Assembly: GCA_003116995.1 (NCBI GenBank)
Contig: BDSL01000062.1
Coordinates: 372,001-436,000 of the forward strand
Direction of reading: 5' to 3'
Length of the DNA: 64,000 bases
Source: Yamagishiella unicocca
Lineage: Eukaryota; Chlorophyta; Chlorophyceae; Chlamydomonadales; Volvocaceae
Shown here: positions 4,783 to 64,000 of the stretch, in pieces
Layout: every line of letters starts with the position of its first letter
Numbering within the stretch: position 1 is the stretch's first letter
The notes under the pieces: model-generated
What the model was told of the DNA's origin: nothing
What the model saw: the letters and a program-made list of their open reading frames with translations, nothing else
The model's database searches: none
Made by a program: the position numbers and the translations under genes

Positions 4783-4865
4783 CGTCTCTTTCAGTGTCAT
4801 GCGATGCGCCCGATGGCTCTAGCATGTGGTCTGGGGCCCAATGTGACAGTTACTACCAGTACTAG
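4783..4865 (+). repeat. Dispersed SINE-like element, truncated copy 1
   Basis: This matches the conserved 3' part of a family found about a dozen times in the window. The core reads CAGTGTCAnGCGATG, then CCCGATGGCTCT, then GGTCTGGGGCCCA and a tail of short ACT/AGT repeats. The 16-bp array begins directly after the tail. Confidence 0.75.
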
Positions 4866-4875
4866 CGCCCAGGCT

Positions 4876-7194
4876 GCCAGCAGCGAGGGCCACCAGCAGT
4901 GAGGGGCACCAGCAGTGAGGGCCACCAGCAGTGAGGGGCACCAGCAGTGAGGCCCGCCAGCAGTGAGGCCCGCCAGCAGTGAGGGGCACCAGCAGTGAGG
5001 GGCACCAGCAGCGAGGGGCACCAGCAGTGAGGGCCACCAGCAGTGAGGGGCACCAGCAGTGAGGCCCGCCAGCAGTGAGGGGCACCAGCAGTGAGGGCCA
5101 CCAGCAGTGAGGGGCACCAGCAGTGAGGCCCGCCAGCAGTGAGGGGCACCAGCAGTGAGGCCCGCCAGCAGTGAGGGGCACCAGCCGTGAGGGGCACCAG
5201 CAGTGAGGGCCACCAGCAGTGAGGCCCGCCAGCAGTGAGGGGCACCAGCAGCGAGGGGCACCAGCAGTGAGGGCCATGGGCACCAGCAGTGAGGCCCACC
5301 AGCAGTGTGGCCCACCAGCAGTGAGGGGCACCAGCAGTGAGGGGCACCAGCAGTGAGGGGCACCAGCAGCGAGGGGCACCAGCAGTGAGGGGCACCAGCA
5401 GTGAGGGCCACCAGCAGTGAGGGGCACCAGCAGTGAGGGGCACCAGCAGTGAGGGCCACCAGCAGTGAGGGCCACCAGCAGTGAGGGCCACCAGCAGTGA
5501 GGGGCACCAGCAGTGAGGGCCACCAGCAGTGAGGGGCACCAGCAGTGAGGCCCGCCAGCAGTGAGGGGCACCAGCAGTGAGGCCCGCCAGCAGTGAGGGG
5601 CACCAGCAGTGAGGGGCACCAGCAGTGAGGGCCACCAGCAGTGAGGCCCGCCAGCAGTGAGGGGCACCAGCAGCGAGGGGCACCAGCAGTGAGGGCCATG
5701 GGCACCAGCAGTGAGGCCCACCAGCAGTGAGGCCCACCAGCAGTGAGGGGCACCAGCAGCGAGGGGCACCAGCAGTGAGGGCCACCAGCAGTGAGGGCCA
5801 CCAGCAGTGAGGGGCACCAGCAGTGAGGCCCACCAGCAGCGAGGGGCACCAGGAGCGAGGGGCACCAGCAGTGAGGGCCACCAGCAGTGAGGGCCACCAG
5901 CAGTGAGGGCCACCAGCAGTGAGGGGCACCAGCAGTGAGGGGCACCAGCAGTGAGGCCCGCCAGCAGTGAGGCCCGCCAGCAGTGAGGCCCGCCAGCAGT
6001 GAGGCCCGCCAGCAGTGAGGCCCGCCAACAGTGAGGGGCACCAGCAGTGAGGGCCACCAGCAGTGAGGGCCACCAGCAGTGAGGGCCACCAGCAGTGAGG
6101 GCCACCAGCAGTGAGGGCCACCAGCAGTGAGGCCCGCCAGCAGTGAGGCCCGCCAGCAGTGAGGGCCCAGCAGGAGGGCACCAGCAGTGAGGGGCACCAG
6201 CAGTGAGGGGCACCAGCAGTGAGGGCACCAGCAGGAGGGCACCAGCAGTGAGGGGCACCAGCAGTGAGGGCACCAGCAGTGAGGGGCACCAGCAGTGAGG
6301 GCACCAGCAGTGAGGGGCACCAGCAGTGAGGGCACCAGCAGTGAGGGCCACCAGCAGTGAGGGCACCAGCAGGAGGGCACCAGCAGTGAGGGCCACCAGC
6401 AGTGAGGGGCACCAGCAGTGAGGCCCGCCAGCAGTGAGGCCCGCCAGCAGTGAGGCCCGCCAGCAGTGAGGGCCACCAGCAGTGAGGGGCACCAGCAGTG
6501 AGGGGCACCAGCAGCGAGGGGCGCCAGCAGTGAGGGCCACCAGCAGTGAGGGCCACCAGCAGTGAGGGCACCAGCAGTGAGGGCCACCAGCAGTGAGGGC
6601 CACCAGCAGTGAGGGCCACCAGCAGTGAGGGCCACCAGCAGTGAGGGCCACCAGCAGTGAGGGGCACCAGCAGCGAGGGGCACCAGCAGTGAGGGGCACC
6701 AGCAGTGAGGGCCACCAGCAGTGAGGGGCACCAGCAGTGAGGGGCACCAGCAGTGAGGGCCACCAGCAGTGAGGGCCACCAGAAGTGAGGGCCACCAGCA
6801 GTGAGGGCCACCAGCAGTGAGGGGCACCAGCAGCGAGGGGCACCAGCAGTGAGGGCCACCAGCAGTGAGGGGCACCAGCAGCGAGGGGCACCAGCAGTGA
6901 GGGCCACCAGCAGTGAGGGCCACCAGCAGTGAGGGCCACCAGCAGTGAGGGCCACCAGCAGTGAGGGCCACCAGCAGTGAGGGCCACCAGCAGTGAGGGG
7001 CACCAGCAGTGAGGGGCACCAGCAGTGAGGCCTGCCAGCAGTGAGGCCCGCCAGCAGTGAGGCCCGCCAGCAGTGAGGGCCACCAGCAGTGAGGGGCACC
7101 AGCAGTGAGGGGCACCAGCGGTGAGGCCCGCCAGCAGTGAGGGGCACCAGCAGTGAGGGGCACCAGCAGTGAGGCCCGCCAGCAGTGAGGGGCA
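4876..7194 (+). repeat. 2.3-kb minisatellite, 16-bp unit, about 145 copies
   Basis: The unit is CCAGCAGTGAGG followed by one of three four-base endings (GGCA, GCCA or CCCG). A few 14- and 15-bp units cluster at about 6160-6370. Because 16 is not divisible by three and the unit has no stop on the minus strand, all three minus frames stay open for about 790-800 codons, giving a 16-residue Cys-Trp-Pro-Leu-rich periodicity. Those ORFs are a by-product of the array and not genes. Confidence 0.95.
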
Positions 7195-7214
7195 CAAAAA
7201 GGGTTGGGGGCTGG

Positions 7215-7494
7215 GAATCATCTTGCTGTCCGTGGGTCGATCTCCTCGACCGTGCCATCAGCCGTGAAGTGGTAGATGTTTGGGCCTTTCTTGGGGGGCT
7301 GTGCTACGTTAGGGCTCCCCCGGGGAGAGTTGGGCCGCTACGGGTCCTCAACACCCTTTCTTGCGGATAATTTCCAGTCGCCTTCTGTGTGCGGGGCCGG
7401 ACGACATGGATGTGGGTTCGTGGTCAGCCCCCGGCTGCATGGTGGCATTCATGAGCCTCCTGGTTCGTCTCAATCGTACAAGTCACTTGTAAAG

Positions 7495-7916: not shown

Positions 7917-8861
7917 AAGCTCTGCGACGTTGGATTCCTAATGCAAGGATCAATATGTGCGAGGAACGAAACTTGCGATTGTGACAAAGCCTTTCATACA
8001 TGACGCAATCCTGCGGAGATGCCCCGCCCGTGCCATCCTTCCATAACGGATACGACTACCAAACAGTTTACTCCGTTATGAGTGGTGATCAGGGCTCAGC
8101 TTACCCTTTCCGCGCCTAGAGCCCACTGTACCAGTTACCATTACTTCCTTGTGTCAGGAAAACCCAGATGACCCCCAATGCCAAACAGCATGAAACAGGA
8201 TAACCACACGACTTGATTGCATACGATGGTTGCCTTCAAAGGATCTTGGCGTTCTGAGCACTAGACCGTTCATGCCCCCAGACGTCATGATCCTTAGACG
8301 CAGCAACCGCTTGCCAGCAATCGCATAGGAAACATGAACTTCAGTAAAACAGGAACCAAACCATTCAGGCACCTTTACACTGCATTCTGATATCTCAGGT
8401 TCGAATGCCTCGGTGTCCCACTCACCTCTGACAGTGGAAATACCGATACCACAACATCACTTGCGGATCTGAACACAACAACAGTGTACTGTAATACTTC
8501 CTATTAACAGCAGTGCGTAAGGCAGAAACATCAAACCTCATCCAATTGAATGGAAGCCCGTTGAACGGGGCTGTACCGCAAACAGGTACAGCATCCCACG
8601 AAATGCCCCTTGGATCACCGATGCAAATCGCACGCTTCACGTCCCCGATCACATTCATCGTTTTATCTACTGGTTCGCAGTGCTGCTCGTGCCGGCATAC
8701 TATGCTACTGACCGGACTTCAGGGAACGGACGTTTTCACCTACTCTCACGTTATGAATAAGTTGCAGAAAGACAGGGTCATGAAGAAAGACATTCGACGT
8801 AAGGTCCTGGCTAAGGGTAACACTTTGCAATTTGCATTATGAAGGCACAGTCCAGGCTATA
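7917..8861. other. Probable 3' region of the sulfotransferase-like gene, no coding region seen
   Basis: A partial family tail (GAGCCCACTGTACCAGTTAC) lies near 8105. The minus-strand sequence TGTAA (plus 8375-8379) could be the poly(A) signal of the sulfotransferase-like gene, about 610 nt past its stop. Two minus frames of 72 and 78 codons have no recognisable motif. Confidence 0.45.
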
Positions 8862-8984
8862 TCCATGCCCAGCCTAAATTCGTCTCTGGAGGCGGAGGCA
8901 TGTCCACGCCCAACCTAAATTTGCCTCTGAAGGCGGAGGCATGTCCATGCCCAACCTAAATTCGTCTCTGAAGGTGGAGGCATG
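8862..8984 (+). repeat. 41-bp direct repeat, three copies
   Basis: Three near-identical units share the block CCCAACCTAAATTCGTCTCT and a GGCGGAGGCATG end. The array abuts the stop codon of the sulfotransferase-like gene (8989-8991), so it lies in its 3' UTR. Confidence 0.85.
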
Positions 8985-8988
8985 CCAC

Positions 8989-10679
8989 TTAGTTAAGTCC
9001 ACACGAACACCTCCGATTTGGATCCCAGAAGCCGGCATGCATAGCAATGTCGTACACAATGGCATCCAACTGCGCCAGGATTGCAACAAACTTGAACATC
9101 TCGTTATCGATTTTATTTTGCGAATCTACGTGGCTCCACAGCTCCTGGACGTCCATAATAATCTCATCATCGCGGTACGGATGGTCCATGTCGTGGATAT
9201 CAAACATGCACCAACCCAAACCAAGAAGAATTGTCGAGTTGTGCTGCATTTCGTCGCCACGAACCAGCAAGACGTCGTAATGGTTAAGTACAAGACTACG
9301 AGCGATACGCAAATGGGACCCCTTTATAGAACCGTACGGCAGATTGAAGACATCCTCCCCAAGAAGAGACCGGATGATGTAATTATCCAGACAAGCAGGC
9401 ATTAGCTTCTTCCAGGCCTCCACGTCTTGGAAGCCAGTCGGAAAGTAACTTTCCCGGTGATCATAGCATTGCATATTCAGAAAACGCATCCAGTGCTTCA
9501 ACTGCGACATGCCTCGCTCCCGAGGATGCCGTACCTGCAAGGAGTATAAATTATTTAGTCCGCCAGAATAACCATGCATGTGCATAATCTTTCATCATAC
9601 CTGAAGAACCGTAACCATGTCATCTGAGCACGTGTGTGCTGGGTCCGACTCGCCTGACCCCCCTAGTGTTGTATATTCATTCGCGTAAAAATGGATGCCT
9701 TGCTCATGCAGGTAGTCCTTGCGTTCACGACATGCGACCACATTACTACGCCGGCTGTAAGGAAAAGCCACATTGCAGCCCATCGCGGTGTCCCCTGTTA
9801 GTGCTGCGTTGACTGCTACGGCGTTCTCTACAGAATACCACCGGGCCTACAGGGCATCAGACAATATGAGGATTGGAGCATAGCGATACCAGAGAATGCC
9901 ACTACCACATGAACAGTAGCTGGAGTTAGGAATACGAATACTCCCATACACCCTTTCCATGGTGGGTGTTACACAGACGTGCCTTCACCAGCTTGCCCTG
10001 CTTCTCCCATGTTTCGTTCCCCGCACCTCCCCCCAGGAAGGAAACAACCTATGTATAGTAGTACTATCACACAACCCTTACTGGTGTGCGATAGTCCTCG
10101 CACCTGGTCTTCCCAGAGTGAGATGACGCAGTTGTCCTTCCGCACAGGTTTACAGCCAGTAAGCTGTGCGAGATGGCAGAAGGACGTGCCGCCGGCCTTA
10201 CTTATGTGTGAGAATTCAATGACGCCTTTCCGCGTCATTTCGCCTCGATGCTTCGCGTACAGACGTATTAACATTTCCTGTGCCACAAGCTCCGCAACGG
10301 GACTAAAAGTGCCGCCAAGCAGCTCACGAAGGGCAAAGCCGGCCACTATAACTCGACGGACGGCTGGTATATATGCACGTGTAGAAGATTGCTGTATGAG
10401 AGTATCCAAGGCCGCCAAATGCTCGAGGAGCTCGTCTTCAGACACATGAGCCACAGTATACGCCATAACCACGAAAGGCTGGAGTTCGAGGTGGAACTCG
10501 ATTTTTTCTACTTGCTGGTCAAGTGGCAGGAGCGATTGCAAAACATTCAGCACTTCTTCAGTAGTCGCCACCTTCAAACCGTCGCCCGCAAATCGAGATT
10601 GCAGGGCGCTTCTGAGAGCCCCCCCTTGACATGTCACTGTCAATAGGGCAACCAATAGGCAAGATACTAAGACCGACAT
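8989..10679 (-). CDS. Secretory-pathway sulfotransferase-like protein (PAPS-dependent family)
   Basis: Three minus-strand exons fit in phase: 10679-10082, 9794-9601 and 9534-8989, giving 445 residues. Donors are GTAAGG and GTATGA; acceptors are AACAG and TGCAG. Residues 1-20 form a hydrophobic signal peptide or anchor. HISKAGGTSFC at 158-168 matches the 5'-phosphosulfate loop (H-I-P-K-T-G-G-T-S type) of carbohydrate sulfotransferases, and VRHPRERGMS at 265-274 matches the 3'-phosphate motif (R-x-P-x-x-R-x-x-S type). A hydrophobic segment with NHYDVLLV follows near 347-354. The expected reaction is transfer of sulfate from PAPS to a glycan or protein in the Golgi or outside the cell, and volvocine algae have heavily sulfated matrix. 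The acceptor cannot be told from sequence. The SKA in place of PKT in the loop deviates from the animal consensus. The start is the first ATG and directly precedes the signal peptide. Confidence 0.75.
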
Positions 10680-12287
10680 TTGTCAAGGGTCCATGCAACG
10701 GTGAACGTTCATAAAAGGATAGCTGCAAGACTATACTATTGATGAAACTAAAAATATCAGCTCGCAAAACTGAACCTTCTGGTCCATCCATCCTGCCAAG
10801 TGAAGTGGAAAATATAAGGCCCATGTGCTAACCGTGTGTGCGTAATCGGAAAATGATGTATCGGTACCGGTACCGGCAGTTAAACAAAATATTTTTCAAG
10901 TTCAACGGCTTTCGCGCGAGTTAATGTTGCCACTACTATTCCTGATGGCAGTTGGAAGCGGCAGTGCGTAAGGATTCCCGGAGCCATGCCTCGGTTTGCT
11001 TCTATATTTACGGATCTCTACCGAAGGATGGCATTACTATGCGCTCCATTCTCCAAGTGAGGAAATCGTCCCATCGCCAAAGCTGTCAGCCAGCGTCCTC
11101 CGCGATTGACGTTTGCCCGCGCCCTCCAGCCACCACCCGTTGCACATTCCAGCCGGCCCCAGCCGGGGCGGACACCGACCGCCTACCTACCCCCAGCCAG
11201 CCCGTCAACCGGATATGATGTTCCCATGCCTCCCAGCCACCGCGCCCTTGCATTGACGTCTTCACACGACCTAACATGTCATGATTATGGGTTACCGTAC
11301 CGGCTACGGGCGGCTACCCTGCCCGAAACGGAACGACCGTCGAGCACTTGACACCGATCTGGTGCGGCGGAGAGGGGCGTGAGGGGCCTCCGCTCCCGCT
11401 TTCATCACAATCTTTTAGAAACTCTGGCCATGCGATGTGCGTAGGCAGTCTACTTCCACAAGTTCCGCCACAGCAGCTAGTCGGGCATCGGCCCGCCAGC
11501 TACCTCCTTGATATCCTTGCGGCGCAAGGTTGCCTTACGTGGATAATCGTGCAATAGAACACCGTAAAGGACCACCCATTTCTATGGCCCATAATCCCAA
11601 TAAGAAACACTGATAGCCAAGGAGAGAGGGTCTGGCAAGGGAGGAGCGCTGTTCTTATCTCGTTCACCACTCCAATGGCAGCACCACATCAGTTCACCGT
11701 ACTGCAACGTGCAACCTGATGGAGCCAATCCGTCCTTGCCTGCACAGGATCACATGGTCTCCGCAGCCTCCCTCCCCCACCTGTCCCTTTCCCCTCGATG
11801 CCTTCTTTAAGACACATACCTATTCCCGGTATTCCCACCCTCTCAGCCCGTCCCCTCATCCATCTTCTAGTCACCCTCAAACTTATGCCGCGGGTGGCGT
11901 GTAGCTGATGTGCCCGTCGCTACCGAGAGGACCGGGTGGTCAGGCCCCACCCCTTCCTATCCCTTCGGCAGCACTCCAGGGTCGGGCGAGTGATGGCTCG
12001 TGCGCCCACGCGTGATCGCTCCAATGCCACAAGCGCCGCCAGCGCCGCTGCGTCCCGTACGCTTTGCTGCGCTCTAGCTACACATGCGCACGGCGGATGG
12101 GGCTGGCCGCGATTCCCGCTGTATCACCGCTCTCACTGCATTGCATTCCAAGAAGCGGTGTACATACAACGCGGCAAGCACGGCTGAGGTGCGGCGAGCA
12201 CGCTGAGGTCTTTTCTGCAATCCGCCGCACCCGCACTGTTCCGGTTGCGGCCCCAGAATTGGATGTTCCCCGGTAGCAGCACCCCAG
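10680..12287. other. Upstream region of the sulfotransferase-like gene; no gene seen
   Basis: The promoter of the minus-strand gene should lie at 10680-10950. Near 10860 there is a short GGTACC repeat. Several plus and minus frames of 60-90 codons across 11000-12200 show no motif, and their boundaries are not flanked by convincing splice sites. Confidence 0.4.
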
Positions 12288-59740: not shown

Positions 59741-60440
59741 AACTGTAGGCAGGTTACAGGGTGTTACAGGGACCCTTCCTCGCGTCGTCGTGCCTCTGTA
59801 AATGAAAACAGTCATTCATCTTCCACATTTCGACCTCCCTGCAGGATATACCTCCACGCTGGTCGCGCTCTTTCAAGGCAAACTGGTACGGTAAGCACAC
59901 TGCGTGACAGGGCAACCGGCAGGTGGAAATAAGATCTGACGGGGCCCAGACTCCACAACAGTACGACAGTGTTCGTCAGCGCCATTTCCTCTGGATACTT
60001 AATGGGGGGAATGAGGTCCGTAAGGATGACGCTGGGCAATCGGCGTTCTAACATGGCTACCCGGGGTTGATTGAAACGAAGCGCGTATGGAATAAGAGAG
60101 ACAAGGCTATCCTCTCAGGTGCTTTCCGATGTGGTTAAGAAGGAGGCGCTGTAAATGATACCGGTTTAGTAGAGGGAGCGCCACTGCGCCCAGGATTTGC
60201 GCGGGTGTACTCCCGTACATCATGCAAAATGTGGTGTACCGGTATGCCTAGATTTGGTGATAGCAGGCCGATGCAGGCGTTGCGCAAAGCTATGTCCCAC
60301 CTGCCCGCCTGCTGCGGTACCGGTCCTGGTGTGAAAAACATGGGCTTAGGAAGGCTACGGTGCCTTGCTCAGATGGAGCACGTTGTGGTTCGCTTCGACC
60401 ATAGCGCACAAGCCCCCCTGGTCCATGTTTTGATGATCCA
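59741..60440. other. Stretch without a supported gene
   Basis: Short frames on both strands only. No domain motif, tandem array or family core was found. It ends where duplicate copy 2 begins. Confidence 0.4.
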
Positions 60441-61050
60441 CTCTCTGCCACATGGTTTAACGCTCCTAGCGTGCACCCTTCCATCCGCCAGAAGGCTCGG
60501 TGATCGGTACGTAGGCCATCAGCAGCAAGGGGGACTGCCGTTTCTGCAACCGTCCGGGTAACCTAGGGTTAAAATGCCCATTACGCTTGCGCATGTTCAC
60601 GCAGTGGCAAAGCCCCGCCGTGCACACGTGGATCGTGTTAAACCATTCCCGGGCAGGAGAAGTTGGAGTGCCTGCTGCCCGGCGTTGCAGGTATTCTTGC
60701 CGATCTCAGTCCCAGACCAGTGTCTCTGACCAACATCCCTGACCAATGTTTAAAAATACATTAGGCCCAAATCCTTCTCTCTGAAGCTAAATATAATCGT
60801 GGTCTGAGCCAATAGGCGCGAGGCAGGTGCCTGGGTTTACATGGTAGATCGCTATAGTGACATTCACCGAAACTAGCCGGACGTACATGAAGCAGGTAAT
60901 GTATGATATATGAATAATGATAGAAAACAACATTACGGGAGGTGGTGCAGGGCCTTACTATCAGTGTTGCCAAAGCTCCAGGGATGCTATGGGTTTTATG
61001 GTCAAGAGCTTAGTCCAACTTCAGATCAGCTAAGTGTTCCCTACATGCCG
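60441..61050 (+). repeat. Duplicated segment, copy 2: upstream region of the GT69-jacalin gene
   Basis: This copy ends just before the start codon at 61062, so it should contain the promoter and 5' UTR of that gene. It lacks roughly 80-100 bp present in copy 1 between the conserved blocks. See copy 1 at 57280-57970. Confidence 0.8.
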
Positions 61051-61061
61051 TTTATGATGAA

Positions 61062-63910
61062 ATGGTGACAATTTGCCACGCTCTCGCGCATGTAACTGTT
61101 TTTTCTCTCATATGGGGGATACAATGGAGCAGCGCGCTTCCATCTCAGGAGGAGGACCTGGCTTTTTTCATTCCTCGGGTCCCTCCTGTGACATCAAGTC
61201 AGCTTTCAGCAGTACTGGCACGGGCAAATGCTCTACGGGACAGAGCAAAGCAGTCTTCTGAAACGGCGCGCGTCGTGGCTGAAGCTGTTGCCGCGGCAGC
61301 ATGCACTCTTCCACCCGTATCACTAGTTCGGGGACTGCGCAGTCTCAAGGACATACCTCAAGAAGTACAGGATCACTTGCCGGAAGCAGTAGACTTACTC
61401 GCAGCTGTCCGTGGGTTGGGCGTTGCTCCATCCTGTCTCGAGCGACCTGGCGCACCGCGTGGACCACCGGGCTCGCATCGGTACCTAATTGCCGCGACCT
61501 TAACCAACTGCGAAGCTCTTATGCCGGTAGGAGACTTGCGTCTGCCTTGAAATCTCGACGCACGACTAATACATAGGCTTGCGCAGTTCTGGATACTGGA
61601 AGTGATGCGCTTGGGGCTCATGCTCGAGGGCAACAACCGTATTCTTAATGCATACTTCCACAATGTCACATCTGGTGAGGCCGAGTCGTGGCTTGGGAGT
61701 GAGGTTCATATCTCGGTGTATGAGAGTGGAAGCACGGACTCAACTGGTACATGGCTTCAAGTAGCCGATGCACTCTGGACGGCGGCTGGATTGCGTTCTC
61801 ATGTGGTAACAAACGGTGCTTTGATTCGCGGCATCCGAATGGATCCCTACTCGGGCAAGTTTCACAAACAACACCGGATAGAGGTACGTGCTCTGGGTTA
61901 ACTTCCATCGCGTCCCTCCACGTGCAAACCCTTAACGGTTCTTCACCGTGCAGTTCCTGTCCTCATTAAAAAATGCTGCGTTGGAACCACTGTACAACAG
62001 TCCACGTGGCACGTTTGATTACGTGTTTTTTGTCAAAGACGGTATGTAAGCCCAATGGTCCATTTATGTAACCCGATTGGCTGTACCTCGATCTGACTTG
62101 CGGGTTTGTCTACATGCAGTCTTCTTTTGCGCACCGGACATTCTTAGGTTAAGCACTCTGAATGCTGATATCTCGTGCGGACTAGATTTTGAGGTGAGTC
62201 GTGTCAGGTTTCGGATTTGCCTTTCCCGGGATTTTTTGATATCATTGCGTGTTTGCCCAGGTGTGGATTGGTGATAGGAAAGGCCATATGGCTGGTACCC
62301 ATCACCAGCCAGACGTCCCAGACCCTCATCGCGTCCTTCTGTCGACGGGTGAGGATGAGTCATCGGTACGACTAGCGCCACCCAATTGGCATTCAGCGAT
62401 TAAACATATGACGCTGGTCCATGCTGAGGAGGCCACAAGGCAGGCTGAAGCGGATACGAGGATCCAAGCAGCACGAGTAAAGCCCAGATACGAATTTTAC
62501 GGTACGAAATTATTGTTGTTGACTTTGATTAGCACCTGAGCTGAAGTTCCTTCCGGCCCTGCGGCTGAAATGACAGATACCTGGGTCTCCAGAGACGTCG
62601 GTGGAAATCCCGTAAGTTGCCCAAGCGAATGCTGTTTCGATGTGTACGGGGACTAAGTCATTTCCTGGTTTCGTTGCAGTTTATCAAGGAAGATCCTATC
62701 GCTCGTGACACCCGAACAATTGACACCTTTCACCGTAGCCTGCCCATTCCGGCAAAGTGTTGTTGGAACGGAGCGGCAATGGTCAACGCCTCATTGCTTC
62801 ATGCTGGTGGGTTGGCAACACGCTGGGAATGCAGATGCCAAAAGTATTTGAGTGCCACATATAAACCCACCCCCTCCGCTGAAAACTGTATAGGAGTTCG
62901 GTTTCGTCCCGGTCTTGTTGACGATGGCGAGTGCGACATTAGCGATTGCTCCATCTTGTGCGAGGATTACCGGCGCATGGGACAAAAGCGTGTCGCCGTC
63001 GACCCGTCAGTAAGAGTCTCCTACGTAGCGTGGACAAAGGTCAGTGGACTTGGGCAATTGTGATATTTATACATCCGCAAAGGCCCATCCAGTGACACTG
63101 TGCCATGCATATTGTAGGACATCCATGGTCGTCTGCCTGGGGGCATTGGGGCTAAGGTTTCGTGGTCGCACGTGGAGAGGAGCGGCGCTTTGGACAAATT
63201 GACGAGAATGTGGAGCGATACCCAAGGCTGCATGTCGATTCAGTGCGTGCCTACACGTGAGTGGGATTGATTTGAGTGATCTGGTTGGCAAACCGATAAT
63301 TTGCTGGCCACCTAACCCTTGATCCCTAAACGTCCTTTCTCCAGGAAAAGGAGCCGAGGAGCCTGACATTCATAAGTTCAGGGTCATTGATCTAAAGAAG
63401 ATCAACTTCACTCAGATATTCTTCGACCGCCTTAAAAACCCTGCACCAGCACCTGCAGCGCCCCTGGCTTGCAACCTGATCATGGGTCCATACGGCGCGA
63501 CAACGGACGGCAGCGCTTTCGATGATCTCACATACTCATCATGGGGCAAGGCGCCGATTACGCGCATTACATACCGTACAAGTACCTATATCAACGGGCT
63601 TCAGCTGACGTATGGGGAGAGCGTGGCTGCACATCATGGCGGAGTTGGAGACGAGGGTGAGATCGTTCTTAAGTCCGGGGAGCTGATAACCCTCGCTGCG
63701 GTTCATTTCGATGACACGGTCGTGTATGGAGTCGTTCTCGGCACTAGCATGGGGCGCAATTTGACGATTGGAAGCTTTCCTCCGGATGTCAGCCAAGCTC
63801 GAGGTAATCCGTGCCCCAGCTCGAGCGCGCATGCTGGCCAGTATCACTTGATTGCGTTGGCAGGGACTGCGGACAACCGTGTTCGCTCGCTCACTTTAAT
63901 TTGGTCTTGA
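61062..63910 (+). CDS. Secreted GT69 (CAP59/CMT1-like) glycosyltransferase fused to a jacalin-like lectin domain
   Basis: Nine exons fit in phase: 61062-61526, 61587-61883, 61954-62041, 62120-62193, 62261-62501, 62577-62611, 62680-63039, 63118-63256 and 63345-63910 (754 residues). Residues 1-25 form a signal peptide or anchor. From about 145 to 525 it follows the cryptococcal CAP59/CMT1 alpha-1,3-mannosyltransferase pattern: YLIAATLTNCEALMP, VHISVYESGSTDS (199-206 core), the HRIEFLSSLKNAALEPLY region, FDYVFFVKDVFFCAPDI, YDTWVSRD, CCWNGAAMV (427-435), GECDISDCSILCEDYRR and VDPSVRVSY. After a Pro/Ala linker, residues 613-754 form a complete jacalin-like beta-prism: GPYGATTDGSAFDD, ITRITYRTSTYINGLQLTYG, HGG-GDEGEIVLKSGE and VRSLTLIWS at the end. 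I infer a Golgi or extracellular enzyme that adds a sugar, perhaps mannose, to a glycan recognised by the lectin part. Donor and acceptor are unknown. The start is the only ATG giving a signal peptide. Confidence 0.87.
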
Positions 63911-64000
63911 ACTATCGCGAATATTTATGTCTTAAGTGCACCCGCACATGTCAGAAATGTATCATTGCGACAGAAGCGAACTAACAGGTAGTTATACAGG
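63911..64000. other. 3' UTR of the GT69-jacalin gene, cut by the window edge
   Basis: Only 90 bases remain. No TGTAA poly(A) signal is visible before the end. Confidence 0.5.

Follow-up and report, generated by a model that had tools for sequence, protein, structure and literature searches.

A GT69-family glycosyltransferase with a C-terminal jacalin-type domain in Yamagishiella unicocca and other volvocine algae

Gene structure

In this paper we describe a gene of the colony-forming green alga Yamagishiella unicocca (assembly GCA_003116995.1) which encodes, in one protein, a glycosyltransferase (GT) domain of family GT69 and what its homologs indicate to be a C-terminal jacalin-type beta-prism. 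The gene spans 61062..63910 on the forward strand of the stretch analysed, 64,000 nucleotides of contig BDSL01000062.1 (positions 372,001 to 436,000), which we call the window. Our corrected model has ten exons and encodes 725 amino acids (Table 1). We find one open gene, a conserved fusion that forms one clade among the sampled rows, both folds on a homolog, and the loss of the GXXXD residue pair known from mannose-binding jacalin-related lectins.

Table 1. Features of the fusion gene and its product. Coordinates are those of the window and residues those of the 725-residue protein.
Feature	Position	Strand	Basis
Residues 1-29, hydrophobic and without charges, probably a signal peptide or else a short membrane segment	61062..61148	+	Kyte-Doolittle
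Region before the GT domain, residues 30-138, mostly helical in homolog model	61149..61475	+	Alignment, homolog model
GT69/CAP59 glycosyltransferase domain, residues 139-535	61476..63249 (exons 1 to 9, introns included)	+	
Lys260; Arg in 41 of 42 GT69 rows	61969..61971	+	Alignment
Lys282 (VKD); Asn (ND) in 41 of 42 GT69 rows; adjoining Asp283 kept in 42 of 42	62035..62037	+	Alignment
Asp460; Glu in 38 of 42 GT69 rows	62944..62946	+	Alignment
Exons 1 to 10	61062-61526, 61587-61883, 61954-62041, 62120-62193, 62261-62501, 62577-62611, 62680-62806, 62894-63039, 63118-63256, 63345-63910	+	
In-frame intron, 87 nucleotides, GT-AG, without in-frame stop	62807-62893	+	Homolog alignment, paralog exon breaks
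Last exon: linker, entire lectin, stop codon	63345-63910	+	Reading frame, paralogs
Jacalin-type beta-prism, residues 579-725	63467..63907	+	Homolog Pfam matches, profile, homolog fold
DXXXR, Asp714 to Arg718, at the mannose-binding GXXXD position	63872..63886	+	Structural alignment

A preliminary description of this locus had read nine exons that join without a phase break. Built in this way, the model has GT-AG introns and an open frame of 754 amino acids from 61062 to the stop codon at 63908-63910, but one intron had been overlooked. Exon 7 of the nine-exon model encodes 29 residues that are absent from homologs and correspond exactly to an 87-nucleotide GT-AG intron. With this intron removed, the protein aligns there without gaps to all eight homologs found among the 7996 candidates scored in our first homolog search, and at both paralogous loci of the same genome, C150 and C5, two exons meet at this place.

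Linker and lectin had been assigned to a single last exon, and this is what we find, also in the paralogs, where the two share one frame after the last intron. The place and phase of that intron are identical in the window copy (C62), C150 and C5. These observations bear on the question whether GT and lectin are two neighbouring genes that have been wrongly joined. We reject this explanation as very improbable: the exons join in phase, linker and lectin are read in one frame, the same layout is found in C150, C5 and 11 database proteins of four species, and no separate start with a signal-like stretch behind it can be read in the sequence of the lectin part. The presence of a GT69 domain and a jacalin-type domain in one volvocine protein is supported by its conservation in other species as well as by the exon structure.

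Distribution and origin of the fusion

A second search gave 35 homologs at E <= 1e-5 among 7993 scored candidates. Eleven of them (P0001 to P0011) match a lectin profile made for this family, and the other 24 GT69 proteins do not. The profile was built from 8 of the 11 entries, whose matches are therefore by construction, and not from P0003, P0007, P0008, C150 or C5. A search for the same architecture in volvocine proteins, as proposed in the preliminary description, thus finds 11 database entries from four species: Volvox reticuliferus (3), V. carteri (3), V. africanus (2, possibly the same gene from two assemblies) and Astrephomene gubernaculifera (3). Vretimale_7210 (P0001) and VOLCADRAFT_105533 (P0003) are 62% and 58% identical to the corrected window protein. 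The Y. unicocca genome (133.4-Mb assembly, 1415 contigs) contains three fusion loci, namely the window copy, C150 and C5, and four more CAP59-family loci, C57, C61, C90 and C122, for which no lectin match was found in stretches of 4-5 kb, nor for C90 over 262000-280000. No protein named Chlamydomonas or Gonium is among the homologs, but with some 8000 candidates scored in each search and many nameless matches, absence is not thereby shown. Of 959 candidates in a protein search with the lectin region, two were fusion proteins, namely the query and P0005; because other known members were missed, this search is uninformative on the wider spread. Two V. carteri gene models appear to be faulty: the C-terminal tail of P0003 is unrelated, and P0007 has a long low-complexity N-terminus and is missing the stretch after FFCAPDL.

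All 13 fusion rows of the GT tree form one clade with support 99/98 (the tree holds 38 of the 42 aligned rows; P0008, P0027, P0032 and C122 were left out). Within it the window copy groups with P0001 and P0003, which the three Astrephomene rows join less firmly (93/91), while C150 groups with P0004 and P0006, and C5 with P0005, P0007 and P0009. The fusion clade has an N-terminal region and, ahead of its FYD motif, an insert, both of which are unmatched in the other GT69 rows. The fusion lineage would have gained its C-terminal jacalin-type domain before the gene copies of the colonial volvocine algae separated.

The GT69 gene C90 (268543-273797) is sister to the fusion clade, again with support 99/98. 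Downstream of its GT domain, one frame reads VDLAQPNYTDWYLAQVSTP (VDL..NYT..YL) and then reaches a stop. This stretch, putatively joined to the C90 GT domain, is similar to the linker that precedes the lectin of the fusions. From this likeness we read the lectin as having been gained behind an older linker; a loss of the lectin in C90 is possible as well.

Glycosyltransferase domain

The Pfam family CAP59_mtransfer (PF11735) matches residues 140-496 of the nine-exon form over its full profile (1-242 of 242) with 141.7 bits, the curated cut-off being 28.8 bits, in agreement with the CAP59-type domain that had been placed at about residues 145-525. The predicted fold of a homolog, rather than of the window copy, is a GT-A fold resembling enzymes that use guanosine diphosphate mannose (GDP-mannose).

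The window residues Lys260, Lys282 and Asp460 correspond to Arg264, Asn286 and Glu483 of P0001. Among 42 GT69 rows, four of which were stitched from tblastn segments, the window protein is the sole exception at both Arg264 and Asn286, a change at a near-universal site that the preliminary description had missed. The Arg and the ND motif are positions conserved in the family and are not in Pfam's formal definition. The window copy may be less active or differently active, or bases may have been miscalled.

The same residues raise the question whether the window copy is a pseudo-enzyme, in which GT activity is lost or reduced and which now acts as a binding protein. Besides the two unique Lys residues, Asp460 would fit this explanation, and so would the 20 columns conserved outside the fusion clade, 2 of which are broken in the window copy and 0 or 1 in 11 of its 13 relatives. 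However, P0011 likewise breaks 2 of the 20, and the three breaks of C5 are a stitching artefact, discounted because the C5 DNA encodes CCWNG. The frame is fully open, the Asp next to Lys282 is kept, and the Lys changes may be base-call errors. Furthermore, none of 24 relative-rate tests against P0001 or P0003 shows the window copy to be significantly faster, although the wrong tail of P0003 raises that protein's own count in these comparisons; a general decay of the window copy is not supported. We consider a pseudo-enzyme rather unlikely, but because of Lys282 the enzyme step is less sure in the window copy than in its relatives.

C-terminal domain

The preliminary description had placed a jacalin-like domain at residues 613-754 of the nine-exon protein and had named the lack of a jacalin hit there as a finding against it. 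The HMMER run that it proposed, with Pfam Jacalin (PF01419, cut-off 22 bits), gives no match at E <= 10 for the window protein or its last exon, at a setting where HMMER filters discard most matches above E of about 0.1. The identity of the domain follows from its relatives: 6 of 8 homologs pass the Pfam Jacalin cut-off (P0004 and P0006 fail), the family lectin profile matches solved jacalin-type lectins (best PPL3-A, 3.6e-7), and the predicted structure of a homolog has a beta-prism I fold. On these grounds a jacalin-type beta-prism is supported. A structure predicted for the last exon from the single sequence had a mean predicted local distance difference test score of 31.0 and was discarded.

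Searched against the Y. unicocca genome, the Pfam Jacalin model picked up two sites on C93 but none of the three fusion lectins; Jacalin counts based on this model are therefore too low. Several modules on C93 lie at 244487-249833 (+) and 262978-265792 (-), and one adjoins a long PPSPK-rich stretch. Such stretches are found in matrix rod proteins, and the C93 modules are probably part of a multi-lectin rod protein. Two of the last loops on C93 read GTAGQFLSQ and GTAGQYLTQ, in which the Gly is kept and the Asp lost, and another differs. The PCP and GTA features common to these modules and the fusions suggest one algal jacalin subfamily that occurs in rod-like proteins and in GT fusions.

In the jacalin-related lectin ZG16p, mannose binding is described as involving Gly147, Ser148, Leu149 and Asp151, the GXXXD motif (PMC4059138). 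DXXXR replaces this motif in 13 of the 14 fusion members, including the window copy; the 14th, P0003, has its unrelated tail in place of the site and is probably mis-modelled. The structural alignment of the homolog model with ZG16p ends at residues 754 and 158, and with the last strand pair assumed to be ungapped, Asp743 and Arg747 of P0001 would correspond to Gly147 and Asp151. A plain mannose-binding lectin is not supported. The preliminary description had suggested substrate docking by the lectin; with Asp and Arg in place of the GXXXD pair, there is less reason to think that such docking works through an ordinary mannose-binding lectin. Of three jacalin motifs, a 2019 plant lectin survey reports only the first in Chlamydomonas jacalin domains (PMC6362431).

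An anionic ligand is thinkable, since the D151N change of ZG16p is reported to abolish mannose binding and strengthen heparin binding (PMC4059138) and pherophorin glycans are described as highly sulfated (PMC9818292). The net charges of the fusion lectin domains, which range from -9 to +5 with -4 in the window copy, do not favour such a ligand. A further proposal is that the fusions build the mannose-containing backbone of the sulfated matrix polysaccharide in colonial volvocine algae, and that the mannose site of the beta-prism has been adapted (Asp to Arg) to hold the sulfated glycan, by which the enzyme's own product would feed or hold it. The D151N change points in the same direction, and Volvox SSG 185 reportedly has a 1,3-linked mannan backbone. 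Against it, the lectin domains as a whole are not basic, and we regard the proposal as improbable.

N-terminus and neighbouring sequence

The uncharged run at the start of the window protein reaches its Kyte-Doolittle maximum of 2.02 at residue 7, and the GT69 protein would enter the secretory pathway. The nature of this start matters for an explanation in which it is a signal peptide, as opposed to a long membrane anchor, and the beta-prism mainly retains or anchors the protein in the Golgi or the extracellular matrix. P0010, P0011 and P0005 show, by eye, a short hydrophobic start and then a cleavage-like Ala junction, and in the unfused C57 and P0012 the uncharged runs have 31 and 34 residues and begin at residues 18 and 13. 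The other jacalin-like modules of the genome partly adjoin the PPSPK-rich stretch, which recalls rod proteins. The uncharged runs of the window protein (29 residues), P0005 (25) and P0009 (25), on the other hand, could span a membrane. We hold retention as the main role of the beta-prism to be unlikely, while giving it some weight.

G+C content is about 0.52 at window 8001-12000 and 60001-64000 compared with 0.61 for the whole window, and around the C150 paralog it is similarly low, at 0.51. On the minus strand at window 4797-7303, three open frames of 806-813 amino acids overlap almost completely, which suggests a repeat-rich stretch.

Discussion

Judged by sequence, the gene product is a GT69-family protein whose jacalin-fold domain fails the test for a mannose-binding jacalin lectin. 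We favour, with slightly better than even confidence, a secretory GT69 enzyme with a C-terminal jacalin-type accessory module. The GT-A domain would most likely move mannose from GDP-mannose onto the glycans of secreted matrix glycoproteins, and the beta-prism would most likely hold the acceptor, the product or the matrix through a site other than the mannose pocket. There are several points that weigh against this. Pfam Jacalin does not match the window copy, the GXXXD pair is gone, and the window protein alone departs from both near-universal residues of the GT domain. GT69 membership leaves the sugar and the linkage unfixed in algae. Finally, the DXD motif is said to be essential in fungal Cap59, Cap6 and Cmt1 (PMC9765558), and we identified no equivalent of it in the algal proteins.

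The preliminary description had known of no such fusion. No paper in the literature searched brings CAP59 and jacalin together, most subscription papers being beyond the reach of the search, and none there brings GT69 together with Chlamydomonas. No GT69-jacalin fusion was seen in the consulted passages of papers on Volvox and jacalin, nor by title or abstract start among the matches listed in further searches, and the string GT69 is absent from the main text of a 2013 review of algal glycosyltransferases (PMC3797821). Database entries, however, already carry the architecture, and the GT domain is not new in green algae, because CAP59_mtransfer is among the families listed in the Chloroidium genome paper (PMC5509433). 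The fusion is a genuine and conserved architecture made from two known parts, undescribed in the papers within our searches. To our knowledge, little has been established about which enzymes make the glycans of the volvocine extracellular matrix. The GT69 clade described here, with its integral lectin, provides named candidates: V. carteri, V. reticuliferus and Astrephomene contribute three entries each, and the Y. unicocca genome three genes. From the conserved change of GXXXD to DXXXR we predict that plain mannose binding has been lost and that binding of anionic glycans has possibly been gained.

GT69 is known chiefly from fungal capsules. Fungal GT69 proteins (Cryptococcus CMT1, CAP59 and CAP6, Neurospora GT69-2) have CAP59_mtransfer and most of the conserved positions in common with the window protein, and Neurospora GT69-2 is reported with a predicted signal peptide and a Golgi location (PMC8092235). 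One difference from fungal GT69 enzymes lies in the lectin, whose profile is unmatched in all 24 other GT69 proteins of the second search. Unlike its own fold family, the algal lectin domain is without the usual sugar-binding motif: the fusions have Asp and Arg where the animal lectin ZG16p binds mannose with Gly147 and Asp151 (PMC4059138). VOLCADRAFT_105533 and Vretimale_7210, both named 'Jacalin-type lectin domain-containing' proteins, have the same architecture as the window protein, and no functional study of the volvocine fusion homologs turned up in the literature searched. Polypeptide GalNAc-transferases carry a ricin-type lectin domain on a glycosyltransferase. GnT-IVa (MGAT4A) is likewise described as a glycosyltransferase that has a lectin domain at its C-terminus (PMC9296478). 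The fusions differ from both in GT family and, as far as is known, in lectin fold too; by analogy, they would work as GnT-IVa does, as lectin-assisted glycosyltransferases.
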